Positions 245-36,879 of a DNA stretch of 45,896 nucleotides are shown here, in pieces (position 1 is the stretch's first letter; each line of letters opens with the position of its first letter). The notes below the pieces were generated by a model. The model did not search any database. It saw only the letters and a list, made by a program, of their open reading frames with translations, and was not told where the DNA came from. Position numbers and translations under genes: made by a program. Location: positions 1,070,107 through 1,116,002 of the forward strand of contig CP070824.1 of the NCBI GenBank assembly GCA_020344395.1, read 5' to 3'. Origin of the DNA: Candidatus Zixiibacteriota bacterium (GTDB lineage Bacteria > Zixibacteria > MSB-5A5 > GN15 > FEB-12).

Positions 245-270
245 ACTGAACCTTGTCCTCCGGTTCACGA

Positions 271-2898: not shown

Positions 2899-2913
2899 AA
2901 AAGCAGGATCAAC

Positions 2914-7754: not shown

Positions 7755-8939
7755 TTACTGCTGGTAGGTTTCACAAATGTGCTGAACAATGCGCTCAAAT
7801 CCATCAATGGAGTACTTACCCCATCCGGCTGAGGCCATTCCGGCGAGGGAACCGTCACGGGCAAACTCTATTATCATCTCGCCGAAAGATCGGGCGCTGT
7901 CATCTGAGTCGATTATCTCTGCCACCCCCTTGTCCCGCAGTAGCCTGCAATTCAGCGGCGCAAAGGGACCGATCGTGGGCATCAGAATGAACATGGGCAT
8001 ACCCAGGCCGAGCGCCCAGTTGCTGCGTTCATGAGACGGCGCCACACAGAAATCAAGATTAGCAAACAGCCTGGAGCAGAATTGCTCCTCTACTCTACGT
8101 GAATCATAGTCTACCAGTGCCGCCTCCGGTGGCTCACTCGGGATTTCAGATAGAGAATTCAGAATTACCAGATCTTCACCTTCTCCCCTGTATCGCCGGC
8201 GGACAGCCGCGTCCAGCCGACCACCCCGGCCGGCAAAAATCACCACCTTACCTCGACATCTCAAGTGAGATAGTGAAGCCGTCACCAGACGCTCGACGTG
8301 CATGGCTGGTTCGGCCCCGGAAGAGAAGAAAGCACCGGTCAAGCCCTGCCCTTTGCTGTAGCGTTCCATGCGTAACCGGTACGCGTCGTCGGCCTGCCCG
8401 ATCAGTGCCGGTTCGATGCACAGGCCGCTGACGAGAATCGCATCCCGGTCATACCCGGCCTCGCCGAAGACACTTGCCACTTCGGAGGTCGGGACTATCA
8501 CTGTCGCTGCACCCTTCACAATCGACTCCCGGGGCGCCACCAGTTCACCATGCTGATAGATCAGGTTGGGCCGACCGGCCAGCATCCCCACCAGGCTTGG
8601 ATGGGCCACCAACAGCGGATCAGCCAGGTCGCGATATTTGCTGACAATGTCGCGACCCATTATTCGAAGCATCAAGGATGGACGGTTGTAATCAGTGTTC
8701 GACCGTACCAGCCCATACACTGATCCTGTCAGGCCTCCTGATGACCCACGGTGGTACAGCCAATGGGCTAGTCTCCAGCCCGCCGCGGCCGGCCCCCGGG
8801 AAACCGCGAAAACGTCGGTCTTGTCCATGACGAAACCGCCTTCGCCGCTGCGCGCCATAGTCTCCACGATGCCGTCAAGATAGAATGGATGGCCCCGTCC
8901 AATGTTGGTATAGAGAATTGAGATCGTCGGCTTTGTCAT
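7755..8939 (-). CDS. Glycosyltransferase-like protein (GT-B fold)
   Basis: 394 residues from ATG 8939. A TTG at 8987 would add 16 residues but lacks a ribosome site and adds no conserved sequence. The N-terminal strand I-S-I-L-Y-T-N-I-G-R-G-H-P-F-Y-L-D-G corresponds to the Gly-rich first loop of MurG/MGDG-synthase-type GT-B enzymes. The C-terminal half has a V-A-P-S-H-E-R-S-N-W-A-L-G-L-G-M-P-M-F stretch at the place where GT-B enzymes bind the nucleotide-sugar donor, followed by N-C-R-L-L-R-D-K-G-V-A, also typical. No membrane segment is seen, so it should act in the cytoplasm or at the inner leaflet. Donor and acceptor are unknown. An MFS gene follows directly. Confidence 0.65.
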   Translation of the reverse strand: MTKPTISILYTNIGRGHPFYLDGIVETMARSGEGGFVMDKTDVFAVSRGPAAAGWRLAHWLYHRGSSGGLTGSVYGLVRSNTDYNRPSLMLRIMGRDIVSKYRDLADPLLVAHPSLVGMLAGRPNLIYQHGELVAPRESIVKGAATVIVPTSEVASVFGEAGYDRDAILVSGLCIEPALIGQADDAYRLRMERYSKGQGLTGAFFSSGAEPAMHVERLVTASLSHLRCRGKVVIFAGRGGRLDAAVRRRYRGEGEDLVILNSLSEIPSEPPEAALVDYDSRRVEEQFCSRLFANLDFCVAPSHERSNWALGLGMPMFILMPTIGPFAPLNCRLLRDKGVAEIIDSDDSARSFGEMIIEFARDGSLAGMASAGWGKYSIDGFERIVQHICETYQQ

Positions 8940-9095
8940 ACGGCGGATCCAGCGTAGAAAACAAACATACTCCTTGACCAGGTCCAAGTCAATCGCTGGC
9001 GACCGCTCTTGGACTGGGCCGAAGCCCCGTCTGTGATCTCAGGTCAGCCCCTGGCGATTCTTGCGAACGTCTTCGATCCGTGCCCCGATCCGAGC

Positions 9096-9125
9096 AAAAA
9101 AAAGGACCGACATCGCTGCCGATCC
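9096..9125 (-). terminator. Rho-independent terminator of cheW
   Basis: Read on the minus strand, GGATCGGCA pairs with TGTCGGTCC (9 bp including two G-U pairs) around a GCGA loop, followed at once by eight T. It lies 29 bases past the cheW stop codon, so it should end that transcript before the glycosyltransferase gene. Confidence 0.85.
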
Positions 9126-9153
9126 TCCGGCTCTCAGAATAGTTCCCGGGGCC

Positions 9154-9648
9154 TTACTGTCCGACGTCCACCATTTCGTCTACGTCGATGACTTTTGAAA
9201 GGTCCAGGAAGATTAACAATCTATCCTCTAGTTTGGCGACACCCTTGATGTATTCCGCGTTAATACCCGTAACAATCTCGGGAGGCGGTTCAATCGTGCC
9301 TGCTGTGAGGCGTAACACCTCGGATACAGCATCGACGATCATCCCCATAATGGTCCCCCCAATGTCGACTACGATGATCCTCGTGTTCTTGTCGTGTTCC
9401 TGCACTTCAAGATTGAAACGCTTGCGCAGATCTACGACCGGTATCACCTTGCCCCGGAGGTTGATAACTCCCTGCACGTAATGAGGTGCTTGCGGTACCC
9501 TTGTTATGTCAACCATCCGGTTGATCTCCTGGACCTTGAGAATATCCACCCCGAATTCTTCAGAACCGATCTTGAACGAAACCAGCTGCAGCTCGTTGTC
9601 ATCCGCCGCCGAGGTGCTCTCATTTTTAGCTGCAGTTTCGATTTCCAT
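9154..9648 (-). CDS. cheW: Chemotaxis coupling protein CheW
   Basis: 164 residues from ATG 9648, which has GAAGGG nine bases upstream; a TTG at 9687 and an ATG at 9657 lie in frame but are less well placed. The protein is a single CheW domain: L-Q-L-V-S-F-K-I-G-S-E-E-F-G at the start, then E-I-N-R, then the highly conserved G-V-I-N-L-R-G-K-V-I-P-V-V-D-L-R-K-R-F, and a closing L-I-F-L-D-L-S-K-V. CheW links chemoreceptors to the CheA kinase in arrays under the inner membrane. No other chemotaxis or flagellar gene lies nearby, and a terminator follows, so it seems to be a single-gene unit. A short acidic, Ser-rich N-terminal extension (about 18 residues) precedes the domain. Confidence 0.95.
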   Translation of the reverse strand: MEIETAAKNESTSAADDNELQLVSFKIGSEEFGVDILKVQEINRMVDITRVPQAPHYVQGVINLRGKVIPVVDLRKRFNLEVQEHDKNTRIIVVDIGGTIMGMIVDAVSEVLRLTAGTIEPPPEIVTGINAEYIKGVAKLEDRLLIFLDLSKVIDVDEMVDVGQ

Positions 9649-9833
9649 CTGCCACATCCCTTCTCTTTTGTTCCGGTCTTTGTCCAATCATTATTTCGGC
9701 ATAAAGTCGACCCCTCAGAACCTACTAGTTGCATAATTAAATCGGGCGTTATCGGCAGTCACGCAGGGCGCAGTAGTCTTGCCACAGGCAGCTCCGGTCC
9801 GGCGATCTTTTCGGACGAGTGTCTCGCAATCTA

Positions 9834-9862
9834 TTGCGTCGAACGGGGCTACTTCTTATCTT
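9834..9862 (+). promoter_or_regulatory. Candidate sigma70-type promoter of the M29 aminopeptidase
   Basis: TTGCGT at 9834-9839, a 17-base spacer and TATCTT at 9857-9862. The expected start near 9869 leaves a leader of about 30 bases that includes the GAGGAGG ribosome site. Predicted by pattern only. Confidence 0.4.
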
Positions 9863-9901
9863 GGGAAGTCCTGAGAGGAAACCTTGATTTGAGGAGGATC
9901 G

Positions 9902-11044
9902 ATGAAGGATCCGCGAAACGAAGTCCTGGCGCGTCAGCTATTGGATTATTCCGTCGAATTGAAGGCCGGTGAGACCATTTACGTGGAAATCAAGGGCAAA
10001 GAAACGCTGGAACTCGGCCAGCAGGTGGTTCGCCTGGCCACGGAGCGGGGTGCTACGCCGTTCTGGTTTTACAACGACGAGTCGGTTCTTCGCCAGTTTC
10101 TCGGTTCCGCCGGCGACGATCAGTTCAAGCGTCAGGCCGAACTTCATATGGAACTCATGAAGCGTTCGGACGCCTACATCGGCCTGCGCGGTTCGGATAA
10201 TCCCTTCGACCTGGCCGACATCGACAAAAACCAGATAGAAAAGCACAATTCCATCTTTTACCGCCCGGTACATCTGGAACAAAGAGTAAAACACACGCGC
10301 TGGGTGGTGCTGCGCTATCCGAACAATGCCATGGCTCAGTTGGCTGAAACATCGCAAGAGGCGTTTGCCGATTTCTATTATGACGTCTGCTGTGCCGACT
10401 ATGCCAGAATGTCCGCGGCGCAGGATGCGCTGTACGACCTGATGATGGCTACCGACAAAGTCCAGCTTAAGGGGCCTGGAACAGATCTGACTTTCTCGAT
10501 CAAAGATATCCTGTGCGAAAAGTGTGACGGCAAACGCAATATCCCGGACGGCGAAGTATACACCGCGCCCGTGCGCGATTCGGTTGACGGGACCATCACG
10601 TACAACACTCCTTCGCTGTACCAGGGGGTTGTCTATGACAACATCTCTCTTACTTTTGAGAATGGAAAGATCATCAAAGCGACCTGCGCCGGCGACGATG
10701 CCGGCCTGAACAAGGCTCTGGATACCGATGAAGGAGCCCGGTATGTCGGCGAGTTTGCCGTTGGCGTCAATCCGTTCATACTTCATCCCATGAAGGACAC
10801 CCTTTTCGACGAGAAGATCGCGGGTTCGATACACTTCACGCCAGGCCAGTGTTACGACGAAGCACCGAATGGCAACCAGTCTGCCATTCACTGGGATCTC
10901 GTGCTGATCCAGCGGCCAGACTACGGAGGTGGCGAGATCTATTTTGACGGGAAACTCGTTCGGAAAGACGGCGTGTTTACAGACAGGGCGTTGGAAGACG
11001 CATTTTCAAAAGAGAACCTCAAGGCCAAAGGGCTTAAGAGATAG
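9902..11044 (+). CDS. Aminopeptidase, peptidase family M29 (aminopeptidase T type)
   Basis: 380 residues, slightly shorter than the usual ~410. An AGGAGG four bases before ATG 9902 fixes the start. The family pattern is clear: an N-terminal L-L-D-Y-S-V-E-L-K-A-G-E-T segment, and in the second half the metal-ligand region with G-E-F-A-V-G, L-F-D-E-K-I-A-G-S-I-H-F, and S-A-I-H-W-D-L-V. These supply the Glu, Glu, His, His and Asp that bind the two-metal centre in M29 enzymes. No signal peptide, so it is cytoplasmic. It removes N-terminal residues from peptides. The next gene, ferritin-like, begins 32 bases later. The organism also has M20 and M17 enzymes in this window. Confidence 0.93.
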   Translation: MKDPRNEVLARQLLDYSVELKAGETIYVEIKGKETLELGQQVVRLATERGATPFWFYNDESVLRQFLGSAGDDQFKRQAELHMELMKRSDAYIGLRGSDNPFDLADIDKNQIEKHNSIFYRPVHLEQRVKHTRWVVLRYPNNAMAQLAETSQEAFADFYYDVCCADYARMSAAQDALYDLMMATDKVQLKGPGTDLTFSIKDILCEKCDGKRNIPDGEVYTAPVRDSVDGTITYNTPSLYQGVVYDNISLTFENGKIIKATCAGDDAGLNKALDTDEGARYVGEFAVGVNPFILHPMKDTLFDEKIAGSIHFTPGQCYDEAPNGNQSAIHWDLVLIQRPDYGGGEIYFDGKLVRKDGVFTDRALEDAFSKENLKAKGLKR

Positions 11045-11076
11045 TCCGAGGCCAACACAGCAGTTTGGGAACGGCA

Positions 11077-11586
11077 ATGAATATCGTCAAATTCGCAATG
11101 CAGATGGAGCTGGACGGCAAGGCGTTTTATCAGCAGGCGGCTGCCGCAGCGGTCCAACCGGAGCTCAGGGACATCCTGCTGTATCTTGCTGATGAAGAGC
11201 AGCGTCACTTCATGTTCTTCAAAAAACTCAGCGAGGGGGATACATCAGCAGCCCAGGAAGAACTCACCAACAAGGACGCATCGCTGAAGGATACTAAGAA
11301 TGTCTTTGTCCAATTGACTGAAAACGGGACAGAGACAAGTTTCGGTGATGATGCCCGGTCAACCTGGGAAGAGGCTCTGAGAATCGAGGAAAAAGCAGTC
11401 AAGATGTATTCGGAGGAGGCCCTCAAGGAGAGTGATCCTCATCGGCGAGCCCTTCTTGAAAGAATCGCCGACGAAGAGCGCAACCATGTCTATCTGATTG
11501 ACAGCGTGCTATCATTCATGACTGATCCCGAGTCGTTTGCAGACTCAAAGAAGTATTCCGATTTCCAGAGTTGGGAGGGGCACTGA
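11077..11586 (+). CDS. Ferritin-like/rubrerythrin-type di-iron protein
   Basis: 169 residues from ATG 11077, which has a GGGA six bases upstream; a TTG at 11065 is possible. The protein is all alpha-helical with two repeats of the di-iron helix-pair pattern: M-E-L-D-G-K-A-F-Y with D-E-E-Q-R-H, and I-E-E-K-A-V-K-M-Y with D-E-E-R-N-H. Both E-x-x-H motifs and both partner Glu are present, so a di-iron centre should form. There is no rubredoxin-like C-x-x-C tail, so it is not a classical rubrerythrin. Such proteins deal with iron or peroxide, often in anaerobes. It is probably co-transcribed with the aminopeptidase; a functional link is not evident. Confidence 0.88.
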   Translation: MNIVKFAMQMELDGKAFYQQAAAAAVQPELRDILLYLADEEQRHFMFFKKLSEGDTSAAQEELTNKDASLKDTKNVFVQLTENGTETSFGDDARSTWEEALRIEEKAVKMYSEEALKESDPHRRALLERIADEERNHVYLIDSVLSFMTDPESFADSKKYSDFQSWEGH

Positions 11587-16707: not shown

Positions 16708-17439
16708 ATGAAGTTCAGGATATTCTATATCACGATTATAATGGCCCTAACCGGCCAGGTACCAGCCCAGACCAGACTTGTTTTACACAATCCGGAGATT
16801 GATTTTGGCCGGGTCCCTGCAGCCTCTATTGTCGGCAGTACGATCGCATGCTCCGGCCCCGGATCAGATACACTCAGTATCACCGGGATCAAGACGGGCT
16901 GTGGATGCATCGCGGCATATCCTGAAAGCACGGTCATATCCCCGGGGGATACGGTGGAGATACGGTTCTTCTGGGACACACGGACCGACAGTGGAATCCT
17001 CAGCCAGACCGCGTATATATTTACCGACGCCGGTCCCGATCCTCATCGCGTGAGTTTTACCGCCAATGTCGCCCCGGTGACTGATTCTGCAGGAATGATT
17101 TCCTGTTACCCTTCACAGACCGTGACCCTCCCGGAACCACCCGGCACCGGGTCGACCAGGGGAACGGTCAGGGTAAAGAACGTGTCGGGTGAGGTCATCA
17201 CTGTACGGCTGGTATCCGGGGCTTCCGAGTCTCTGGCAATCGAGTATCCGGAGACACTTGAGGCCGAAGCCTCCGGCCAGTTTAATTTTAGGCTGGCGGC
17301 AGGCTCATGGCGATCAGCGTATGCATCTTCTGCCACCTTCGAGCTGGAATCGGGTGGCGGCCTGGTGCAGAGGATCACTTTCCCGGTTTCCGGAGGTAAC
17401 TCAAGATTAGGAACGGTATTGACGACTGAAAGAGAATGA
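16708..17439 (+). CDS. Secreted DUF1573 protein, cysteine form (Cys-Gly-Cys)
   Basis: 243 residues with a signal peptide of about 20 residues (F-Y-I-T-I-I-M-A-L-T-G, cleavage near A-Q). The following ~100 residues match DUF1573: N-P-E-I-D-F-G-R-V, then the G-C-G-C motif (Cys65, Cys67), then V-I-S-P-G-D-T-V-E-I-R-F. DUF1573 is an Ig-like beta-sandwich of unknown role, common in secreted proteins of FCB bacteria, with the Cys-Gly-Cys strongly conserved. The C-terminal half (from about residue 125) looks like a second beta-sandwich without cysteines. The next gene is its paralogue, 39 bases away, with the first Cys replaced by a TGA codon. Function unknown; the paired thiols suggest redox or metal chemistry in the periplasm (inference). 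Confidence 0.88.
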   Translation: MKFRIFYITIIMALTGQVPAQTRLVLHNPEIDFGRVPAASIVGSTIACSGPGSDTLSITGIKTGCGCIAAYPESTVISPGDTVEIRFFWDTRTDSGILSQTAYIFTDAGPDPHRVSFTANVAPVTDSAGMISCYPSQTVTLPEPPGTGSTRGTVRVKNVSGEVITVRLVSGASESLAIEYPETLEAEASGQFNFRLAAGSWRSAYASSATFELESGGGLVQRITFPVSGGNSRLGTVLTTERE

Positions 17440-17478
17440 CTATATTCACATGATGGCTATTAGGAGATGAGATTGCAT

Positions 17479-18219
17479 ATGAAGAAGTTCACACAAATCC
17501 TCGGCCTGACATTATGCTGGCTGGTTCTGTCGGCTGCGGCTCAGGGTGCACCCCGACTGATTATTGACTCCGCCGATTTTAATTTCGGCTTTGTACCGCA
17601 GAACTCGAAGATTTCTCACATCTTCTGGCTCAAATCGGCCGGAGATGATTCGTTGAAGATTCTGAAAGTGGTGCCTGGCTGAGGCTGCACCAAGGCTCCG
17701 CTCGAAAAGACGGAGCTTGCTGTCGGTGACAGCACTCGGCTGGAAATAGTTTTCAGTTCAAAGCGATACCGCAACAAGATCACAAAACGCCCGCGCATCG
17801 AGACCAACGAAGGGCCGCCTCACAAATCTGTCCAGATTACTACCCGTATTGTGCTCAGACCGGATTCGACCTTTCCAATTGTGATCAAGCCCTACAAACT
17901 GGACATTTCTCAGTTCAGCCCGACCAAGATCCGGGACGAGATGAAATTCAACATCACCAACGTCTCGGACGAGGATCTGAAGGTGGCTTTGATCTCGAAG
18001 CCGGAAGGTCTATTCGACCTCAAGTTACCGGATAAGGTTGAGGCCGGGAAAAGTGCACAGGGGACCCTCAAGCTTCAGCCCGAGGCTATCGAGACTTCGT
18101 TTGAGAAGTCGTTCACCATCGAGTTGAGCGATTCCAAGGCAACTCGCTTCACTGTACCGGTGAAACGCAAGATGCAGAACCCCGGGCAAGCGGACGCCAA
18201 GACGACGGGAGGAAAGTGA
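17479..18219 (+). CDS. Probable selenoprotein: DUF1573 protein with Sec-Gly-Cys, in-frame TGA at 17680-17682
   Basis: Read through one TGA, this gives 246 residues from ATG 17479, a start with a Lys-rich then hydrophobic signal peptide (M-K-K-F-T-Q-I-L-G-L). AGGAG at 17462-17466 lies 12 bases before it; TTG 17473 and ATG 17467 are also in frame. The TGA is codon 68, in V-V-P-G-[TGA]-G-C-T-K. The upstream paralogue reads I-K-T-G-C-G-C at the same place, so the TGA replaces the first conserved Cys and Cys70 remains. Downstream the frame is open to 18219 with DUF1573-like sequence right after the TGA (L-A-V-G-D-S-T-R-L-E-I-V-F matching S-P-G-D-T-V-E-I-R-F). A hairpin structure starts one base after the TGA. 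Standard gene callers would split it into 17467-17682 and a GTG-started 17851-18219. A sequencing error or nonsense mutation is the alternative, but either would have to fall on that one Cys codon by chance. Confidence 0.8.
17684..17733 (+). promoter_or_regulatory. Candidate bacterial SECIS element after the in-frame TGA
   Basis: Lower helix: GCTGCACC (17684-17691) pairs with GGTGACAGC (17725-17733), 8 bp with one bulged A. Upper helix: AGGCTCCG (17693-17700) pairs with CGGAGCTT (17711-17718), 8 bp with one G-U pair, closing a 10-base loop CTCGAAAAGA. The loop starts 18 bases after the TGA, within the 16-37 base range known for bacterial SECIS. The loop does not have G in its first two bases unless the closing G-C pair opens, which is a departure from the usual rule. 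A rival hairpin at 17718-17734 (TGCTGTC, GGT loop, GACAGCA) uses some of the same bases and has a G-G-T loop, but it lies 42 bases from the TGA. Confidence 0.5.
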
Positions 18220-18252: not shown

Positions 18253-18279
18253 AAAAGCCGCCCACCCGGGCGGCTTTTT
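18253..18279. terminator. Bidirectional rho-independent terminator between DUF1573 and GWxTD genes
   Basis: AAAAGCCGCCC, loop ACCC, GGGCGGCTTTTT: a 7-bp GC stem extended by A-T pairs, with a T run on the plus strand and, because of the A run, one on the minus strand too. It lies 33 bases after the selenoprotein stop and 25 bases before the end of the convergent GWxTD gene. Confidence 0.9.
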
Positions 18280-18304: not shown

Positions 18305-19723
18305 CTATCTCATCCTGAAGTCGTCGGTTTTCAGACGTTCGTCCCATTCCCGACTGAACCTTTCGCCTTCCATGTTCGAATGAACTAACCGGTAATCCTG
18401 AAATCCCTCCCGGTCCTCAAACACAAATAGGATTTCTCTACGCTTCGAATGATAGTACCAGACCACGTACGGATTGCCGATTGTAGGTGCCTGTACATCG
18501 ACCCGCTCTTCCCAGGGGCCATGGGTCATATAGATCCGTCCCCGATCAGTTGACCAGCCATCAGCTTCTTCGCTGGTGATTGAAAAATACCGGTTGGCGA
18601 AATTGAACCGGTCGATCATTTCAAGCCGGTTTTCGATGATTGGTGTCAACGGATCATCGTCATTCTCACGCCAATACTGCTCCAGGAAATTCTCTTTCCC
18701 TTCAGGCGTGAGACGAGACAACAACAGCTTCTGACCGGGTTCAAGGTGGTAAGCCACCAACTGTTCTTTGGACTCCAGCGACAGTGTGTCATATGGGTCA
18801 GTGGCCTGACCTGTCGATCTGGCGATGCGGGTCGCTGCCTCCGAAATGATCACGAGATCATACAGCGCCGTATCCCCCTGTCCCGTTTCCATGTCATCGG
18901 CGATGAGTCGAACCTGGTATTTGCCGGGGACCCGGTCCTCAATATCAATCTGCTGAGCAATGACTGCCGATTCCCCGGGCTTGGTGCGCATCTTGTAGCC
19001 GAGGTCACGGACCATGCCTCCCTCATCATCCAGTATGGCATAAGCCAGTCGATAGCTGGAGGAGTCAGTGTCGCTGAAAGTGAGATTGTGGAGCTCGGCA
19101 TAGAGATAGACCGCCGAATCCGTGGCAGCGAAAGCACCGAGTGGACTCACCAGCACCCGGAGTCCATTTCTCACATTGCGATCAGACGTCGTTTCATCAC
19201 CAACGTAGGTCAGTCGGTAAGCCAGGCAGCCACCGCCGATGTTCAGTCGGTCACTCACCGAAGGCCCGACGACTATCTCCGGAATAAACCGCTCACCGGT
19301 GGCCTTGCTGACAACATCCACAACACTCACTCGCGCACTGTAGACGCCTGGCTCGACCATCAGCCATAGTCGATTGAATAACATTGTCGGTTCTGCTTCG
19401 CTCTCAGGAGAGGAACTTGCGCGCGATGAAAAGTAGGTGTTGGATGAGTCTATGGGCAGCCCGTCAGTCCCATAAAGAGTTACCTGAACGAATATTCGGC
19501 TGTAGGAAGCTTCATCGGTACTGTCGGCTCGATAAAGTTCAAACTGTTGATGGTTGAGCACAAAAGGGAATTCGAGCAGAACCCGGGGATCGAGGGTGGG
19601 ATCGTTGTAAACGACAGCATTCGTGTAAACGGCGAGTTCTGAAGAGCTCTCCTGGCCGACGACTTGAAATGCCAATAGCCATACCGGCAGAGCCACCGCC
19701 AAAAACAGCACTCGCAGAAACAT
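18305..19723 (-). CDS. Secreted GWxTD domain protein
   Basis: 472 residues with a signal peptide (V-L-F-L-A-V-A-L-P-V-W-L-L-A-F, about 23 residues). The C-terminal ~140 residues hold the domain: a W-R-E-N-D-D-D-P-L-T-P stretch, then G-W-S-T-D-R-G-R-I-Y, then V-V-W-Y-Y and F-V-F-E-D. The N-terminal part has beta-rich repeats. GWxTD proteins are found in FCB and Acidobacteria-like phyla and their function is unknown. A paralogous gene lies 13 bases upstream on the same strand, so the two form an operon. Presumed periplasmic. Confidence 0.9.
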   Translation of the reverse strand: MFLRVLFLAVALPVWLLAFQVVGQESSSELAVYTNAVVYNDPTLDPRVLLEFPFVLNHQQFELYRADSTDEASYSRIFVQVTLYGTDGLPIDSSNTYFSSRASSSPESEAEPTMLFNRLWLMVEPGVYSARVSVVDVVSKATGERFIPEIVVGPSVSDRLNIGGGCLAYRLTYVGDETTSDRNVRNGLRVLVSPLGAFAATDSAVYLYAELHNLTFSDTDSSSYRLAYAILDDEGGMVRDLGYKMRTKPGESAVIAQQIDIEDRVPGKYQVRLIADDMETGQGDTALYDLVIISEAATRIARSTGQATDPYDTLSLESKEQLVAYHLEPGQKLLLSRLTPEGKENFLEQYWRENDDDPLTPIIENRLEMIDRFNFANRYFSITSEEADGWSTDRGRIYMTHGPWEERVDVQAPTIGNPYVVWYYHSKRREILFVFEDREGFQDYRLVHSNMEGERFSREWDERLKTDDFRMR

Positions 19724-19736
19724 GCTTCAAACAACC

Positions 19737-21074
19737 TCAAAAGTCGGGCTGCTGGTGCAGACCGTCATACGGGTATTGCAGCCTGTAATCACCGTCCTCC
19801 TGCTCATCGACAAAGGTAAAGCGTCGATACCGGCCTTGAGTATAGTAATGCCAGACCTGATATGCTACTGTGTGTGCCGCATAGGGAAAATCATCGACGG
19901 AATCAGGCGCCCCGTAAATGATGTATATTCTGCCGCGATCTGACCGCCAGCCGTCGTACATCAAGCTGGAGAATCTCCGGTTCGCTATGGATATCCTTCG
20001 GTAAAACTCATCCTTGGCTTCGTTCTCTACAGATCCTACCGTAGGATCGCGTCTCAGCCAGAACTCGTCAAAGGCGGCCTGGCGTGCTTCAAATGAAGTG
20101 AGTTGCTTCATGTTGTCGGCTTCACCGGGATCAGCAATATAACTAAGCTGGCCCGTGACCTGATCCCAGTCGGCTCGAATGAGAGCCTCCTGGGACAGCA
20201 GCAGTTCGAACGGCTCTTTGAGTTCAGCCAATTTCTTATTGCGGCGGCCTCTGAGATATACTTCCAGCTCATATCCGCCGGCGGGATAATCACTGACGCT
20301 CATTTGGCGGAGATGTCTGGTTACGGGCTCGTTCAGATCGACATGCAATGTGTCCCTGTATACCATCCCCTTGCGCTCGTGTCGCAGTCTGGTCTCAACA
20401 ACAACGCGGTCGGCGTTATCGCTGCCCGTGTACACTTCCATGTAAAAGAGCAGTCGGCTGTCCTCGGTTCCGCCAAAGACCCTGGACACCGAGGGGACCA
20501 CCTGCAGGTTCCCCTTTCTGAACACGCTGGAGGAATCGGTGAGCTGGTTTACCGACTGGGCGAACTCGATTCCGGACATTGATGGTTGCCGTCTGTCGCG
20601 CAACTCAGCCTTGAAATCGAATTCGCGTCGAGTGCTCTCTCTGCTCTTTACGTCCAGAAGCGTGAACTCGACTTTGTACTTCCCGGGGTCCAGATCGAAA
20701 TTGATCTGGCTCGATCGATAGTCATATCGCGACCTGGTCTTGCCTTCATTATCGACAGTGACGGACCGATCCTTGGAGCTAGCAACCACCTGCCGACCAT
20801 CATCATCTCTGACCACGGCGCTTACTTCGTAATGAGCTCGCCAGACACCATCGGTCTCGACAAACTTAAGACCGACGTTATAAACCTTGTAGTAAATCTC
20901 GAGCTTTACCTTGCCTTCACTTTCGGAGTTGAAGTCGGCCCTGTCAACATGGACGCTCAGCGATGGTTCCTGATTCGGAGATTCCCACAGCGGCGGCTGA
21001 GCAGTCGCAGGACCACAGATCAGCAGCACCAGAAAGGACATCACGGCTGTATCGCGAATGATAGAACTGTTCAT
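19737..21074 (-). CDS. Secreted GWxTD domain protein, variant motif
   Basis: 445 residues with a signal peptide ending near A-T-A-Q. The C-terminal domain begins with W-L-R-R-D-P-T-V-G-S and has the core motif as G-W-R-S-D-R-G-R-I-Y, with Ser in place of the usual Thr, followed by Y-G-A-P-D-S-V and a terminal Y-Q-V-W-H-Y-Y...F-T-F-V-D. The N-terminal ~300 residues are beta-rich and diverged from the downstream GWxTD protein. It is the first gene of a two-gene operon. The promoter is not obvious. Function unknown. Confidence 0.88.
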   Translation of the reverse strand: MNSSIIRDTAVMSFLVLLICGPATAQPPLWESPNQEPSLSVHVDRADFNSESEGKVKLEIYYKVYNVGLKFVETDGVWRAHYEVSAVVRDDDGRQVVASSKDRSVTVDNEGKTRSRYDYRSSQINFDLDPGKYKVEFTLLDVKSRESTRREFDFKAELRDRRQPSMSGIEFAQSVNQLTDSSSVFRKGNLQVVPSVSRVFGGTEDSRLLFYMEVYTGSDNADRVVVETRLRHERKGMVYRDTLHVDLNEPVTRHLRQMSVSDYPAGGYELEVYLRGRRNKKLAELKEPFELLLSQEALIRADWDQVTGQLSYIADPGEADNMKQLTSFEARQAAFDEFWLRRDPTVGSVENEAKDEFYRRISIANRRFSSLMYDGWRSDRGRIYIIYGAPDSVDDFPYAAHTVAYQVWHYYTQGRYRRFTFVDEQEDGDYRLQYPYDGLHQQPDF

Positions 21075-21190
21075 ATCTTCATGTAATTAGACGTTTGATT
21101 GCCATATCTGATTAATTTATTGGTCGGCACGGCTTTTGGCAATCAAAAAGCCCACAGAATGGGAGCACCCGGAGCTATGCGAGACTGAGG

Positions 21191-22444
21191 CTATTCGTAG
21201 CGCAATGCCTCAATGGGGTCAAGGCGAGCTGCCTTAATAGCTGGATATACACCGGATACCAGGCCGACCGATACTGCCACAATGAAGCCAATCGTCATCC
21301 AGAAAAACGACACCGCCAGCGGGAATCCGAATAGAGAATTGATCACAACTCCCAGACCGATTCCCCCCACTACCCCTATAACACCTCCCGTGCCCGACAG
21401 AGTCATGGCTTCGGTGAGAAACTGCAGGACTATGTTGGATTTCTTGGCCCCGATGGCCTTGCGCACACCTATTTCGCGCGTCCGCTCGGTAACCGAAACC
21501 AGCATGATATTCATCACGCCGATACCGCCTACCATCAGTCCCACCGAGGTGATGACAAAAGCTGCTATATAGAGAATATTCGTGATGTCGTTTATCATCT
21601 CCCTGAAGGTTTCCTCAGTCGAAATGGCAAAGTTGTTGGGCTTGTTAAACGGTACTTTTCGGTAAATCCGCAGGGCACTTATTACTTCCTCCTCGGCCCG
21701 TTCGACCTTGTCTCGGGAAACGGCCTTAACATCGAGACCCAGCGCTTTCTCCCACGGCACGAGTTTCTGATAGGTCGATAAGGGAATAATGATCAGACGA
21801 TCATCAAAATCGTTTCCGAAATTTGACTCTACGTTCTCAAAAACGCCGATCACTGTGAACTTATCATCATTGACTCGTATTTCCTGACCGATTGGTTGTT
21901 CTCCACCCTCGAACAGAGCGTCGGCTACTGCCGCTCCCAGAACACAGACCATAAGCCGGAACTGCTCATCGGCGTCACTGATGAACCGACCGGCCCTTAT
22001 CTCCTTGTCCCAGACAGCGATATAATCCGGCCAGGTCCCCATGAGGGTAGGGCGTTCGGTCTTGCGGTTCTTGTACTTCGCCTCGTTTCCGCCTGATCGG
22101 AAATAATGATTGCGCGGGACGACATAGGCCACCGAGGGACAGTTCTCGCGGATTGCAAGAGCCTCACCAACCGTGATATGAGGGCGGTTTCTCTCTTCCT
22201 CACTCAATTCCGAATAGTCGGTGTTGGGGGCAAATCGGCTGATGTTCATGACGTTGGTGCCGCGCCGGCTGACTTCCTCCTCAGCGGCCCGCTGCAGACC
22301 ATCGACGATCGAGGCCATCGCAATAACCGAGCCAACGCCCACCATTACGCCCAGGATGGTCAGGAATGAACGCAGTTTGTTGGCCCACAGGGACGACAGA
22401 GCCATCAGGGCTGCATCTCTTATTTCTACCGGCGTTAAGGTCAT
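21191..22444 (-). CDS. MacB-like ABC transporter permease (second copy)
   Basis: 417 residues with the MacB/FtsX layout: one N-terminal helix (W-A-N-K-L-R-S-F-L-T-I-L-G), a periplasmic domain of about 230 residues, then three C-terminal helices with the E-R-T-R-E-I-G-V-R-K-A-I-G-A cytoplasmic motif and the Y-P-A-I-K-A-A-R-L-D-P-I-E-A-L-R-Y-E tail typical of MacB. The ATPase is separate in this operon. It begins nine bases after the first permease, so the functional unit may be a heterodimer of the two permeases. It is the last gene of the efflux operon. Confidence 0.93.
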   Translation of the reverse strand: MTLTPVEIRDAALMALSSLWANKLRSFLTILGVMVGVGSVIAMASIVDGLQRAAEEEVSRRGTNVMNISRFAPNTDYSELSEEERNRPHITVGEALAIRENCPSVAYVVPRNHYFRSGGNEAKYKNRKTERPTLMGTWPDYIAVWDKEIRAGRFISDADEQFRLMVCVLGAAVADALFEGGEQPIGQEIRVNDDKFTVIGVFENVESNFGNDFDDRLIIIPLSTYQKLVPWEKALGLDVKAVSRDKVERAEEEVISALRIYRKVPFNKPNNFAISTEETFREMINDITNILYIAAFVITSVGLMVGGIGVMNIMLVSVTERTREIGVRKAIGAKKSNIVLQFLTEAMTLSGTGGVIGVVGGIGLGVVINSLFGFPLAVSFFWMTIGFIVAVSVGLVSGVYPAIKAARLDPIEALRYE

Positions 22445-22453
22445 CGCGAATCC

Positions 22454-23677
22454 TTACTCATAACTGAGGGCCTTGACGGGATCGAGGCGGGCCGCCCGCA
22501 TGGCCGGGTAAATGCCAAAAATCAACCCGATACCCACCGATATTACCAGGCCCGCGGTAATAGCCACAGCCGACGGATCAATGGCCATGTCAATCATAGC
22601 TACCAATGTCCGCGCCGCTATGAAGCCTAAAATAATGCCTATGATACCGCCTGACAGGGTCACCATAACCGACTCAAATAGAAACTGCAGCAGCACGTGC
22701 TTCTGCTTAGCCCCGATGGATTTTCGGATACCGATTTCGCGCGTCCGCTCCGTTACCGATACCATCATGATATTCATCACCACTATACCGCCCACCACCA
22801 GAGATATCGACGAGATACCGACCAGAACCAGTCGGAACATCATGGTAAACTGATTCAGCATGTCAAGAATTGCGTCGGCCGTCATGAGATCGAAATCATC
22901 AGGTTTGTCATAAGGGACTTTGCGCTTGGCCCGAAGAATCATGCGGGTCTGGTCCATGGCCTCGTCAAGCTTGTCGACAGAGACCGCCTTTATCGTCAGA
23001 TAGACACCTCCGCGCCGCGATTGCCCGTAATGAGATACGTACGTTGACAGCGGAATAACTATGAAATCGTCCTGACTTTCACCAAACATGCTCCCGCGCT
23101 TCCTCGCAACTCCCGTCACCCTGAACTTCCGCCCGTCAACTTTGATCGTCTTGCCGATCGGGTCAAGCCCTTCAAAAAACTCTTCCCGAATCATATCGCC
23201 GATCAGCACCACGTGGCTCTTGTGTAGATCCTCTTCCGCAGAGTGGAATCGACCCTGGGCCACCTCGAAATCAACGATGTCAATGAAGTTGGCCGTGCCC
23301 CCCATAACGTCGACGCGGCGGAGTGTCTGGTTTCCGTATTTAAGGTTGGAGCGACGGAAAAGGCGCGGGGAAACCTTCTCACAAAGAGTCCAGGATTCTT
23401 CAACCAACTCGGCGTCCTCGAGCATGATCGGCTTACGCTTGACCTTCTCGAAGAATTCTTCATCAGACATGACCGTCATCATCTTGCCGACCATGAATGT
23501 CGACGGGCCCATCGAGGCAAAGACCTCCTCAAGCTGGTCCTGCATGCCCTCCAGAGCAGAGATGATGGTCATAACGGACGTAACCCCGAACACAATACCG
23601 ATAAAGGTCAGTCCCGATCGCAGTTTATTGGCCCGGAGGGCGTTGAACGCGACACCAAAAAGAGCACCGGCTATCAA
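22454..23677 (-). CDS. MacB-like ABC transporter permease (first copy)
   Basis: 407 residues with the same MacB/FtsX layout as the next gene: A-N-K-L-R-S-G-L-T-F-I-G-I in the first helix, a long periplasmic domain, E-R-T-R-E-I-G-I-R-K-S-I-G-A before the last helices, and a Y-P-A-M-R-A-A-R-L-D-P-V-K-A-L-S-Y-E end. The two permeases are clearly paralogous but differ in the periplasmic part, fitting a heterodimer. MacB permeases transmit ATP-driven movement to a periplasmic adaptor and TolC rather than carrying substrate through the membrane themselves. The ATPase gene ends ten bases before its start. Confidence 0.93.
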   Translation of the reverse strand: MIAGALFGVAFNALRANKLRSGLTFIGIVFGVTSVMTIISALEGMQDQLEEVFASMGPSTFMVGKMMTVMSDEEFFEKVKRKPIMLEDAELVEESWTLCEKVSPRLFRRSNLKYGNQTLRRVDVMGGTANFIDIVDFEVAQGRFHSAEEDLHKSHVVLIGDMIREEFFEGLDPIGKTIKVDGRKFRVTGVARKRGSMFGESQDDFIVIPLSTYVSHYGQSRRGGVYLTIKAVSVDKLDEAMDQTRMILRAKRKVPYDKPDDFDLMTADAILDMLNQFTMMFRLVLVGISSISLVVGGIVVMNIMMVSVTERTREIGIRKSIGAKQKHVLLQFLFESVMVTLSGGIIGIILGFIAARTLVAMIDMAIDPSAVAITAGLVISVGIGLIFGIYPAMRAARLDPVKALSYE

Positions 23678-23687
23678 GATCTACCTC

Positions 23688-24395
23688 CTACCTCGTACCG
23701 TTGCGCTGGTCCTCGGGGATGGACTCATCACTGGCTATCTTCCCGTCAAGGATCGAAAGAACCCGGTGGGCATGACGTGCAATATCCCGCTCATGAGTAA
23801 CAGTAATTATCGTGTTACCCTGACTGTGCAGGTCGTCAAAAACCCTCATTATTTCTTCCGATGTTTTGCTGTCCAAATTCCCGGTAGGCTCATCAGCCAG
23901 TATGATGGAAGGGTTATTCACGAGGGCGCGGGCGATAGCCACGCGCTGCCTCTGCCCCCCCGAGAGTTCACTCGGCTTGTGCATCATGCGGTCGGCCAGG
24001 GAAACCCTGTCCATAGCGGCCTCGGCTGCCTTGCGCCTGACCGCGGCCGACGAACCATTATATATCAGCGGGAGTTCCACATTGTGCAGCGAGGTGGCCC
24101 TGGGCAAAAGATTGAATGTCTGGAAAACAAAGCCGATCTCCCGGTTGCGGATGTTGGCCAACTCGTTGTCGTTCAGTGAGCCGACCTCATGATCGTTCAG
24201 GTAGTACTGTCCGCGGGACGGCGTGTCCAGACATCCGATCAGGTTCATAAGGGTTGACTTGCCGGACCCTGATGGACCCATGATTGCAACATACTCGCCG
24301 CGTTCAATAGACAGGGTCACACCTCGCAGGGCATGTACCTCCTCCGAACCCATTTTGTAGGTCTTCCACAGATCATCAGTCCGTATCATCGACAT
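23688..24395 (-). CDS. MacB-type ABC transporter ATP-binding protein
   Basis: 235 residues from ATG 24395, one base after the stop of the adaptor gene; a longer in-frame start at 24443 would overlap that gene and is less likely. Walker [10 protein letters not shown], signature L-S-G-G-Q-R-Q-R-V, Walker [13 protein letters not shown], and the switch His in T-V-T-H-E are all present. The A-D-E-P-T-G-N-L-D form is the hallmark of the LolD/MacB/FtsE group. It drives the two downstream permeases. Confidence 0.95.
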
Positions 24396-24396
24396 G

Positions 24397-25716
24397 CTAC
24401 GAGTTCCCCTGTTCTTCGTCGAGCTCGGCCTTGACCTGGTCACCGTCCTTGACTGTGCGGAGCATCCGATACGGTCCAGAAATCACGGTGTCGCCTTCTT
24501 CAAGGCCTTCAATAACCTCTATGTTCTTTTGATCCGCTATACCGGTTTTCACCTCAACGAACCGGGCTACTCCCTCTCTTATCACAAAGACGCCTTTAAG
24601 TTCTTCGCGTTCAATTTCTTTTCGCACCGAATCCTCAGTGGATTCTTCTTCTGAGGCTTCGGCAGCCTGAACATTTGTGGCCAAGACGCCGGTTGATTCC
24701 TCCGCTTCGGCCGCCCGGGCCGCCTCCAGAGAATCCAGATCAAAACTGCGCATGACCACCGAGCTGAACGGCACGGCCAGAACCTGGTCGCGGAAGGCGG
24801 TGGTAATGTCAACCGTTGCTGACATCCCCGGACGTATTTTGACATCAGTATCTTTGAAGACCACTTTCACCCGGAAATTGGTAGTCTGATCCTGGGTACC
24901 GACGCCCTGAGTGATGGCCGTATTGCCTATCTCCACCACCTCACCGGCGAATGTTGTATCGGGAAAAGCGTCCACCTCAATCTCGGTATCCTGGGCCAGT
25001 TCAACCTTGTTGATCTCGGTCTCGTCGACCTCGACTTCTACCTCAAACACGCTCAGGTCGGAGATGGTCATGAGAGTCTTGGCCTGAGTGAAGGCAGTCT
25101 GGGCTGCCGCTATCTCGCCAACCTCGGCATCCAGATAGGTGATAACTCCGGCCATAGGCGATATGATCTTGGCCTTGCTGAGGTTGTCAAGCTGCTTCTC
25201 ATACCGTGATTTGGCCTGAGCCGCCGACGCCTCGGCAGCGTCATAAGCTGATTTCGCATTCAGATAGGCATACTTGGCGTTCTTGTATTCAGTCTCGGAA
25301 GTGAGGTTCTGTTCGAACAGGCGCTCCTGACGCTGGTACTCCTCCTCATTTTGGTCGAGAGTCGTCCGCGCACCGGTCAACCTGGCCCGGGTCTCGTTTT
25401 CGAAAAACCGCGCCTGGTCCACATCCGACCTTAGCTGCACTGTGTCAAGTACAACCAGCAGGTCGCCCGGTTCCACGAGCTGACCCTCCTCGACCAGCAA
25501 CGCAATGATTTCGCCGTTCACCTCCGAGGTGATATCGACTTTTGTCGCGGGTTGAATCCTTCCCGATGCCGACACAATCTCCTTGAGATCATGTTTCTCC
25601 ACCGCTGCGGCGTTCACATCTCTACCTCCGTTGGAGCCGGAAGTAATGTTCAGCACTACGATTGCCCCGACCACAATAACGCCGAGGGCAATAAGGATCA
25701 CTTTCTTCTTTTTCAT
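24397..25716 (-). CDS. MacA-like periplasmic adaptor (HlyD family)
   Basis: 439 residues with an N-terminal membrane anchor ([17 protein letters not shown]). Next come the first half of a lipoyl-like domain (S-A-S-G-R-I-Q-P), a long coiled-coil hairpin near residues 95-185 rich in Ala, Gln, Glu and Arg, and the second half of the lipoyl domain ([11 protein letters not shown]). Beta-barrel domains follow. MacA bridges inner-membrane permease and TolC. The C-terminal part has an acidic insert ([12 protein letters not shown]), which is unusual. The TolC gene lies upstream and the ATPase gene downstream. Confidence 0.93.
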
Positions 25717-25742
25717 CGCGTTACCTGTCAGTCCTCCCCGAT

Positions 25743-27158
25743 CTACATTTTGCCCATGGCGTTTTCGAGTTTCGCGATAGCCAGATTCAGGTCGAAATCG
25801 ACCCGGATCAAGGACCTCTGCGCATCTTTCATTGAAACCTGGGCATCCAGCAGATCAAGTATAGTCGCCGCCCCGAGGTTGTATTTCTCCTGAGTGATTC
25901 TCAGGTCTTCTTCGGCTGCGTTGACGTTCTCCTGTGATACAGTTTTCTGCTCTCTAAGTTGCTCTATATCGAGGTAGGCCGTCTTTATATCACTGACGGC
26001 CAGGTTCTTGGCATCAGTGAGCTCGGCTCTACTATTGTTATACGCAATCTTTGCCCGCGAAATGCCGGCCTCGCGAGAGAATCCATTGAATATGTTCCAG
26101 TTCAGCTGAACACCAAACGATTGAGATCGGGATGACTGGTCAAAAGTGACTGTGTCTCCACGGGTCCCCTCAGAATACGACATCGATGCCCAGCCTGTGA
26201 TCGTCGGAAAGTATTCGGCCATGGCGGCCTTCTTCCAACGGCCGGCCGCCCTCGTGCCAGCCTCTGCGGCAAGCAGGCTCGGTTTGTGCGTGAGACCGAA
26301 CTCGATGGCTTCATCAAGCGTCCCGGTGTACTCTCGGCCGCCAAAGCTGGTCTCAAACTCCCAGTTCTGCCTGGGATCAAGTCCGATGGTGTAGGCTAGA
26401 TAGGCCCGGTTGTTGGTCACCGCATTCTCTGCTCTCAGCAGTTCGAGTCGGTCATTCCCATACTGGACCTTTTGCTTCAGAACATCGGACTTTGAGGCCG
26501 ACCCAAGTTCAAAACGGGACTCGATAAGTTTGAGTTGCTCATCAGCACGCCTGACCGCCTCCTGCTGAACACCCAGATTCTCATGCGTCAAAAGAAACGC
26601 TGAATATGCCACTTTAACGGAGTATATGAGGTCCTGCTCGGAGGCCAGCACATTCAGGCGGGCCGATTCATGATTGGCCCGAGCTGCCGCATAGTTAAAC
26701 CAGGTTGGGATATTGAAGAGGTTCATCTGGGCGCTCAGTGACATGCTCTTACTTGTACGATCCTGGTCCGGGGCGGTGAACTCCTGTATTCCCAAGTCGC
26801 GGAATTGCGGATCCGGAAATATAAGCGTAAGGGGATTGCCCCCGGTATCAGTTGCCGAAACAAAGAAACTGTCCACACTAACCAGCTCACGAGCTTCCTG
26901 CTCGAACTTGATGTCAGTGTCCTTTCCCTCGGAATACGAAGCGCTGCCGCTGATCCGGGGCATGAAGGCACCCAGAGCGGCCCATTTTTCTGCGGAGGCA
27001 ATCTTCTCATTGCCCAACGCTCGGATAATTGAGGCCCGGTTCTTCAAGGCCAGCTCGATGCAATCATCAAGGGTCAGTTCTTCGGCCCCGACGATTGGGG
27101 CGAAGGCGAGAGTTGCAATGAAAGTGATTACCCAGCAAGACCTTACGATGGATTTCAT
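25743..27158 (-). CDS. TolC-family outer-membrane efflux protein
   Basis: 471 residues with a signal peptide (C-W-V-I-T-F-I-A-T-L-A-F-A). Two TolC repeats are visible: long helical stretches around residues 40-60, 150-260 and 350-470 with the pattern of heptads, and two G-x-N/x-W barrel regions (S-L-S-A-Q-M-N-L-F-N-I-P and S-F-G-V-Q-L-N-W-N-I-F-N-G-F). The end, I-A-K-L-E-N-A-M-G, matches TolC proteins. It forms the outer-membrane duct for the adaptor and permeases encoded next. The gene sits 11 bases after the Yip1-like gene. Confidence 0.93.
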   Translation of the reverse strand: MKSIVRSCWVITFIATLAFAPIVGAEELTLDDCIELALKNRASIIRALGNEKIASAEKWAALGAFMPRISGSASYSEGKDTDIKFEQEARELVSVDSFFVSATDTGGNPLTLIFPDPQFRDLGIQEFTAPDQDRTSKSMSLSAQMNLFNIPTWFNYAAARANHESARLNVLASEQDLIYSVKVAYSAFLLTHENLGVQQEAVRRADEQLKLIESRFELGSASKSDVLKQKVQYGNDRLELLRAENAVTNNRAYLAYTIGLDPRQNWEFETSFGGREYTGTLDEAIEFGLTHKPSLLAAEAGTRAAGRWKKAAMAEYFPTITGWASMSYSEGTRGDTVTFDQSSRSQSFGVQLNWNIFNGFSREAGISRAKIAYNNSRAELTDAKNLAVSDIKTAYLDIEQLREQKTVSQENVNAAEEDLRITQEKYNLGAATILDLLDAQVSMKDAQRSLIRVDFDLNLAIAKLENAMGKM

Positions 27159-27169
27159 CCAAAACTCCT

Positions 27170-27877
27170 TTAATTAAACGCTGCCTGAACAGCGGTGAGG
27201 GCAACATGAACGGCTGCAAGTCCTCCGATAGTAATGACCGATAAAACATATCCTTTGTTGCGGGTAAAGTCGTAGACCGCTGAAAATCCGATGCCGGTCA
27301 CAATTATCTCCCAGATGTGAAAGACACTTATTTTTGACAGACCTACCCAGGCCAGGCTCTGCGGCTCCGGATTCTGCAGAATGGCGGCGAGGGAATACGA
27401 CACCATTATGCTGTCCTTGGCCAGAATCAACGGCAAGTGCAGTAGCATTCCCACGCTGAACAGGATTTCACCGTAGAGCATGACCGAAAGCAGTTTCTTA
27501 TATCGGGTTTCTCCACCGAGAACGAAATTGCCGATAAACATGGCAACGGCAGCGTAAATGAGAGGTGCGATAAGAAAGAATACGGCCCCAATGTACATAA
27601 AGGGCTTCAGAGAATCAGCAGTGAAGCCCGGTGGTACGGGCCGGCCGCTCTCGATCGTAGCCTCGTACTGCAGTTGCGCCAAGTAGTCCACCGCGAAATG
27701 AAAAAACACAGCGGTAGTCAGAGCCAATACAATGTACGGCACCAGAATCTTCGGCTCGTTCTTCAGTTTGCCATAGAACTCCGTCGGCTTACTGAAGACC
27801 TCAATGAGCCCCTTAAATGACAGCCCGGCGCTCTTTGTCGGCTCCCCCACCGGGGAGGCCGGTTCCATCTGAGTCAT
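27170..27877 (-). CDS. Yip1-family membrane protein heading the efflux operon
   Basis: 235 residues, with a GGAGTG ribosome site just before ATG. Five hydrophobic segments are spread over residues 45-235. The N-terminal ~25 residues are polar, then F-S-K-P-T-E-F-Y-G-K-L-K-N-E-P, the usual opening of bacterial Yip1-domain proteins, leads into the first helix. Such proteins are of unknown role, and some sit beside ABC or secretion genes. As the first gene of the operon it may help assemble or regulate the transporter in the inner membrane (inference). No good promoter could be assigned. Confidence 0.75.
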   Translation of the reverse strand: MTQMEPASPVGEPTKSAGLSFKGLIEVFSKPTEFYGKLKNEPKILVPYIVLALTTAVFFHFAVDYLAQLQYEATIESGRPVPPGFTADSLKPFMYIGAVFFLIAPLIYAAVAMFIGNFVLGGETRYKKLLSVMLYGEILFSVGMLLHLPLILAKDSIMVSYSLAAILQNPEPQSLAWVGLSKISVFHIWEIIVTGIGFSAVYDFTRNKGYVLSVITIGGLAAVHVALTAVQAAFN

Positions 27878-28038: not shown

Positions 28039-30045
28039 TCACGGGGTAACACCAAACAGCGCACCGCCGACAACCAGCGAGACGATTGCCATCAATTTTA
28101 TCAATATATTCATAGAGGGGCCGGAGGTGTCCTTGAACGGATCACCAACCGTGTCTCCAACCACGGCGGCCTTGTGGGCATCGGAACCCTTGCCGCCGTG
28201 AGCACCTGCCTCGATGAACTTCTTGGCATTATCCCAGGCGCCACCGGCGTTGGCCATCATCAGGGCCAGCATCACACCGGCCATGGTGGCTCCGGCAAGC
28301 ATGCCGCCGAGGGCCTCCTTGCCGAGCAGAACACCGATGATAATCGGCGCCAGAATCGCTGTCAGTCCCGGGGCCACCATCTGGGCCAGAGCGCCGGTAG
28401 TGGCAATGTCCACGCACCGAGCCGTGTCCGGTTTGGCCTTGCCTTCCATCAGACCCTTTATTTCACGAAACTGTCGGCGCACTTCCTCAACCATCTTTGA
28501 GGCCGCCTTACCAACCGCCGTCATGGTCAGAGCAGCCACCAGAAACGGCAGTGAACCGCCGATCAGGAAGCCGATCACGACCCTGACCTTGAGAATATTG
28601 ATGCCTTCAAGCCCTACTGTAGATGAATAAGCCGAGAACAGAGCGAGCGCCGTCAAGGCGGCAGAACCGATGGCGAATCCTTTTCCGATGGCCGCCGTGG
28701 TATTGCCCAGCGAATCCAGTCGATCGGTGATCTTCCGGACTTCCGGACCCAGACCGGACATCTCTGATATACCACCTGCATTGTCGGCCACGGGACCATA
28801 AGCGTCGACAGACATTGTCACGCCGATGGTGGCAAGCATTCCCACGCCCGCGATGCCGATACCGTACAGGCCGGCAAAAGTAAAGCCGGTATAGATGGCA
28901 ATAGCGATGACTATGACCGGGAAAACAACAGACTGCATTCCGACCGATAACCCATTAATAATGTTGGTCGCCGCACCGGTCAGTGACGATTGGGCAATAT
29001 CTCTGATCGGCTTCGCGGCCGTGTAGTACTCGGTCAGCAATCCCAGGACTATGCCGGCCACATTGCCGGCCAGAATCGCCCAGAATACATTCTGATCAAG
29101 GCCCAGACGATCGATAACAAACCAGGATACCACTAACATCACTATCGCACCCACGTACGTCACCAGCCGGAGTGTGGCCGCCGGGTTCATCCCTGAAAAG
29201 AGACGAACTGACAGCACACCCAGTATCGAGGCTATCGCGCCAAAAGCAACGATAAAGAGAGGCAGCTCCATGTACTTCAGCCGGATCGCCGCGTCGGCGA
29301 AAAGGGCCGCCGAAGAGGTGGCGGCGATAGCGATCGTGGCAATCACCGACCCGACATATGATTCAAACAGATCGGCCCCCATGCCGGCCACGTCGCCGAC
29401 GTTATCACCGACATTATCCGCAATCACGGCCGGGTTCCGCGGATCGTCTTCCGGGATACCTGCCTCTACCTTGCCGACCAGATCCGCGCCGACATCCGCG
29501 GCCTTCGTAAATATCCCGCCGCCGACACGTGCAAATAGCGCAATCGACGACGCGCCCATGGCAAACCCGTTTATCGTCTTTGCTGTGGCCGGGTCGCCTC
29601 CAAACAGCCAGAAGACGATGCCAACGCCAATCAGACCCAGCGAGGCAACCGTCATTCCCATGACCGCTCCACCTGAAAAGGCTAAAGAGAGAGCCAGAGG
29701 CTGACCGGATTCCTTGGCTGCCGCGGTTGTACGCACGTTTGTTCTGGTGGCGGCTTTCATGCCGATAAAGCCGGCCAGCATCGAACAGCAGGCACCGCCC
29801 AAAAACGCCAGCCCTGTGTTCAGTTGAATCCTCCACGATAGCAGTGCAAATACGATTACAACAAATACGGCAAGTATGGAATACTCGCGCCTGAGGAACA
29901 CCATGGCCCCGGCATGAATGACCTCAGCGATTTCCGACATCAGGTCCGTGCCGGTCGATTTCCTTTTAATCCAGGCAAACAGGCCCAGGGCAAAAAGGAG
30001 CCCCACCAAACCGATGACAGCCGCCATAATTCCGACGTTGTCCAT
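28039..30045 (-). CDS. hppA: Ion-translocating membrane pyrophosphatase, K+-dependent type
   Basis: 668 residues, about 15-16 membrane helices. Pyrophosphate-binding motifs are intact: [20 protein letters not shown] and the C-terminal [14 protein letters not shown]. The segment [11 protein letters not shown] near residue 450 has Ala at the position where K+-independent enzymes have Lys, so this is the K+-dependent class. That class contains both H+ and Na+ pumps, and I cannot decide between them. The enzyme splits PPi and pumps ions out of the cytoplasm, saving energy in energy-limited bacteria. An AGGAGAAAGG site precedes the ATG. Confidence 0.95.

Positions 30046-33264: not shown

Positions 33265-36879
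<3,615 letters not shown>

Follow-up and report, generated by a model that had tools for sequence, protein, structure and literature searches.

The question raised by this locus is whether a TGA lying within a gene of the DUF1573 family is read as selenocysteine (Sec) and, if so, which RNA structure directs that reading. The window, meaning the whole stretch of 45,896 nucleotides analysed here from a Candidatus Zixiibacteriota genome, carries the gene just downstream of a Cys-containing paralogue (Table 1), and an earlier note on this DNA had proposed a secreted Sec-Gly-Cys protein of the DUF1573 family. This proposal is supported by conservation of the TGA, by the presence of selA, selB and selD and by a SECIS-like RNA after the codon, and judged from such comparative evidence the gene very probably encodes a true selenoprotein.

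Table 1. Coordinates of the features discussed, numbered from the first letter of the window.
Feature	Position	Strand	Remarks
Partner Cys-DUF1573 paralogue (Gly-Cys-Gly-Cys)	16708..17439	+	PF07610 family, 1.6e-12; 39 nt upstream of the Sec gene
Sec-containing DUF1573 gene	17479..18219	+	246 residues; in-frame alternative start at 17467
UGA codon read as selenocysteine (probable)	17680..17682	+	32/32 similarity-retrieved sequences; 99/101 class-wide pattern matches
Candidate SECIS hairpin H1	17693..17718	+	loop GAAAA starts 21 nt after the UGA; -13.5 kcal/mol
Hairpin H2, GCTGTC-GGT-GACAGC	17719..17733	+	apical loop 42 nt after the UGA; 6-bp stem
G+C-rich inverted repeat then T run (probable terminator)	18253..18279	+	3' of the Sec gene; found by eye
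Two GWxTD-domain genes	18305..21074	-	transcribed towards the Sec gene; synteny kept at nearly every related locus
Two MacB-type permeases, ABC ATPase, HlyD-type adaptor, TolC-type outer-membrane protein	21191..27158	-	conserved neighbours

When translated through, the frame contains only the TGA at codon 68 (U68) and its terminal TGA, with 67 codons before U68 and the 178 open codons after it that the earlier note had counted. Around the codon it reads Pro-Gly-[TGA]-Gly-Cys against Gly-Cys-Gly-Cys in the adjacent paralogue, and the contrast of G-[TGA]-G-C with G-C-G-C drawn in that note holds, the paralogue having T-G-C-G-C there. Residues 29-122 of the product match Pfam DUF1573 (PF07610) at 9.8e-20, with 70.8 bits against a gathering threshold of 26.1, and so both flanks of the TGA form one domain, in keeping with the single protein read earlier. 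A signal peptide is predicted at about residues 1-23, by which the product is taken to be exported. The motif is Sec68-Gly-Cys70; in the mature protein Cys70 is the sole Cys and Sec68 the sole selenol, and Cys70 is invariant. Long read-through frames are common in the window, where 20 in-frame TGAs are each flanked by some 60 open codons or more in either direction, and so the case for the Sec gene must rest on conservation.

Homologues of DUF1573 were sought in 146 genomes, 129 of which gave matches at E<=1e-20. Among the relatives retrieved by protein similarity TGA occupies codon 68 in 32/32 distinct Sec sequences, down to 47% identity; the earlier note had suggested looking there for TGA or for TGC/TGT. 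Random stops elsewhere in the gene, which it had thought would speak against a selenoprotein, are absent from the aligned segment of these 32 sequences, and two rows of the 146-genome search have one further stop each, outside that segment. In the paralogues of the Sec loci the Sec position is occupied by Cys. Chance read-through would not be expected to leave the TGA at one and the same codon, in an aligned segment free of further stops, in every Sec relative examined. That the TGA is an ordinary stop or a base error, the gene being a decaying or truncated DUF1573 pseudogene or the assembly having one base wrong, could be argued from the 20 comparable frames in the window and from the draft state of the genome, but it is extremely improbable given the recurrence of the TGA in 32 distinct sequences with the aligned segment otherwise open, the presence of another TGA-containing paralogue elsewhere in this genome and the link between the TGA and a structured RNA element; sequencing error and pseudogene are regarded as ruled out by the TGA conservation. 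Genome-wide reassignment of TGA is likewise ruled out, because the Sec gene itself terminates at TGA.

The genome holds five further DUF1573 homologues, of which one (L003, at genome positions 3426116-3426790, minus strand) has TGA at the same codon. This second Sec-DUF1573 gene is 48% identical to that of the window, has a longer N-terminus and an exact copy of H2, and has no Cys partner beside it. On a tree of 41 proteins, several rows of which are long, the Sec label requires four to five changes, and the nesting of Cys members among Sec members (for example L002, L043 and L111) suggests losses of Sec to Cys rather than many gains. At two loci, L111 (G030) and G123:C275:3629-3682, TGC replaces TGA and H2 is retained; the change from Sec to Cys at both is apparently recent, the RNA element having yet to decay. 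Elsewhere four tandem DUF1573 genes, one Sec and three Cys, occur together (L080, G014:C26, about 7794-11162). Sec-DUF1573 genes also occur in two public records, L025 and L026, whose titles, perhaps out of date or mistaken, name Calditrichaeota and Ignavibacterium; the genomes matched by these genes are placed in the family (G047) and the order (G059) to which the window belongs.

The machinery for selenocysteine, a search for which the earlier note had also suggested, is largely evident. In the same genome selA (498.7 bits) adjoins selB (300.5 bits) and selD scores 390.4 bits, all over the curated cut-offs. The selD gene has a TGA-Sec in the position typical of Sec-containing SelD (Cys-Ala-Gly-[TGA]; L015 1531-1533), making it a selenoprotein gene itself, and it folds a single hairpin with the loop GUU 20 nt from the TGA. 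No tRNA-Sec was found in this draft, a single scaffold with 100-N gaps and 84.8% completeness, by the Rfam model, by two patterns or with a relative's tRNA-Sec gene. The three best Rfam candidates fall below the cut-off and are tRNA-Ser or tRNA-Leu, and the one 15-base match lies inside coding sequence and looks like chance. A tRNA-Sec over the cut-off is present in 63 of the 79 genomes searched, the same genus included, where ARAGORN calls tRNA-SeC with anticodon TCA (G001), and its apparent absence here is treated as a presumed gap in the draft. SelA, SelB and SelD of this genome, together with tRNA-Sec, would then insert Sec at the UGA, under the direction of an RNA structure that lies within the coding sequence immediately 3' of it.

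What that structure is can be asked against the published description of the bacterial SECIS (bSECIS), which sets four constraints, on the loop, a G, the spacing of 16-37 nt from UGA to apical loop, and the energy (PMC13188914). Two hairpins follow the codon. H1 of the window passes all four constraints, its 21 nt falling within the spacing rule, and H1 does so in 59 of 99 TGA sequences; H2, at 42 nt, falls outside the rule and so constitutes a concrete and testable departure from it. The region after the TGA is more stable than its synonymous shuffles (mean z -1.49), with flanks near zero. Across the 32 sequences H1 shows double-sided changes in 18 cells, where shuffling gives 8.4 +/- 1.8, and on column-wise permutation of codons the mean energy of the H1 region is -9.74 against -6.25 +/- 0.25 kcal/mol permuted; both tests are inflated by relatedness, and slid controls drop from 88% to <=64% paired. 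RNAalifold alone did not select H1, which is supported by these pair counts and permutation tests. An outer helix between UGA-proximal bases and H2, seen on folding a single sequence, was rejected for want of covariation in its variable columns, and an Rfam search of the window gave no match.

H2 is conserved quite differently. Its RNA consensus, GCUGUC-GGY-GACAGC, hardly varies among Sec genes and is missing from close Cys paralogues; in the 32 similarity-retrieved sequences it varies only at the third bases of Gly (T/C) and Ser (C/T), and otherwise synonymous third positions are frozen (GCT 32/32, GTC 32/32, GAC 32/32, AGC 30/32). Val is fixed within H2 of the Sec genes, at a position that most close paralogues with Cys fill with Pro or Ser. 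A class-wide pattern of H2 with the Sec codon left as TGN finds 101 cases in 92/132 genomes, of which 99 are TGA and two TGC, with no TGG and no TGT; the pattern itself imposes the H2 sequence, and so the informative part is the link to TGA. Reversed, the pattern gives zero matches. Within this genome the two Sec-DUF1573 genes alone contain an exact copy of H2.

How the two hairpins share the work bears on whether a new kind of element is present. Both share features with the canonical type of the bSECISearch model (PMC13188914), that of E. coli formate dehydrogenase: the signal is in frame and directly 3' of the UGA, H1 shares loop, G, spacing and energy with it, and H2 shares the G-G-N loop and a 6-bp stem. 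In contrast to that type there are two adjacent hairpins, and the most conserved of them is 42 nt from the UGA. The near-invariance of H2 and its G-G-Y loop, set against the variability of H1, favour H2 as the SelB contact, and it is on balance somewhat favoured that SelB would grip H2 while H1 compacts the extra spacing. The wider proposal, of a two-part SECIS throughout the class with a variable, covarying H1 followed by a nearly invariant 15-nt H2 recognised by SelB, is tentative and stands at a little under an even chance; were it true, the bacterial SECIS would gain a further, distinct class, and its RNA constraint would be strong enough to fix Val where most of the close Cys paralogues have Pro or Ser. 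It is also possible, if short of probable, that H1 by itself is the SECIS and H2 something separate, such as an efficiency enhancer, a pausing structure or a protein-binding site. This agrees with the passage of the window's H1 through every published constraint and with the single hairpin of selD at a similar distance, but sits poorly with a variable H1 that fails at least one constraint in 40/99 genes and whose loop in the window reads G-A-A, and with a nearly invariant H2 whose loop is of the G-G-N kind usual in bSECIS. What may be new is a SECIS of two hairpins, with the SelB-type loop of H2 as its distal part.

The earlier note doubted that DUF1573 had been described as a selenoprotein family, and in this it was wrong. 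Two reviews that cite Zhang & Gladyshev 2007 (PMC9312934, PMC13188914) include DUF1573, with the motif UGC, in their tables of selenoproteins, and by these tables the family was first described in that year from an Olavius symbiont; NCBIfam also has an OS_HP2 family (seleno)protein (NF041425). The neighbouring names OS_HP3-5 in the review tables, together with the profile match, suggest that OS_HP2 corresponds to the DUF1573 entry of 2007. PF07610 and the U-G-C motif are common to these proteins and the present one, and NF041425 is matched at E<=0.001 by 40/40 of the members tested, Sec and Cys alike. However the window's protein reaches 62.6 bits where the cut-off is 100, outside the curated subfamily, and by that measure it is a relative and not a member. 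The Sec-DUF1573 genes here are then, as far as the alignments and profiles go, a new branch within a selenoprotein family already known, real and well supported. Among the papers searched, none links Zixibacteria to DUF1573 selenoproteins. The branch adds an uncultured Zixibacteria-like class in most of whose genomes the gene is indicated by the pattern, and the class-wide set provides deep data for a selenoprotein family without known function. Gene calling that takes TGA as a stop truncates every such gene.

The product is modelled by AlphaFold with a mean pLDDT of 94.1 as two beta-sandwich domains, and is predicted to fold as two tandem Ig-like domains of the ASH/MSP type. Sec68 and Cys70 are placed directly after a strand of the first domain. 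Foldseek matches the model to Ig-like domains of the central apparatus and of CEP192, the best being axonemal central-apparatus proteins; full-length TM-scores to PDB entries are low (0.3-0.4), the likeness being at the level of domains. The fold is shared with HYDIN, CFA65 and CEP192, and PF22544 covers the same stretch, but here it occurs in a bacterial protein that is secreted and conserves a U/C-x-C motif, and no cilia link is implied. A search of PDB by sequence gave no match. Among solved structures of similar length, 2qsv from Porphyromonas gingivalis, of unknown function, is matched by Foldseek at E 2.0e-9, although identity is 13%.

As to function, Sec68 and Cys70 could form a reversible selenenyl-sulfide, so providing an extracytoplasmic thiol/selenol redox site alongside the Cys-Gly-Cys paralogue, a reading to which we give slightly better than even odds. 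CxC pairs are also potential metal ligands. The Sec-Gly-Cys pair might accordingly bind or deliver a metal rather than act in redox chemistry, and synteny with a tripartite export system of the MacB/HlyD/TolC type would fit either export or metal handling. Metal binding nevertheless seems unlikely, since the mature protein offers just two thiol/selenol candidates as ligands, few for one site, and since Sec in place of Cys is typical of redox-active Cys (PMC9312934, PMC13188914).

At 31/34 Sec loci the gene immediately upstream, in the same orientation, is a Cys-DUF1573 gene, with gaps of 18-120 nt, the 34 including duplicate records of two genomes. The partner in the window is probably an operon mate, co-transcribed with the Sec gene. 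In many related genomes the DUF1573 pair is joined to the set seen at 18305-27877, comprising GWxTD, MacB, ABC, HlyD and TolC genes and a Yip1-domain protein. Further off, at 253-5379, the window encodes two large proteins of 881 and 821 aa that match no Pfam family, and the pyruvate:ferredoxin oxidoreductase at 33265-36879 and membrane pyrophosphatase at 28039-30045 are consistent with an anaerobic lifestyle.
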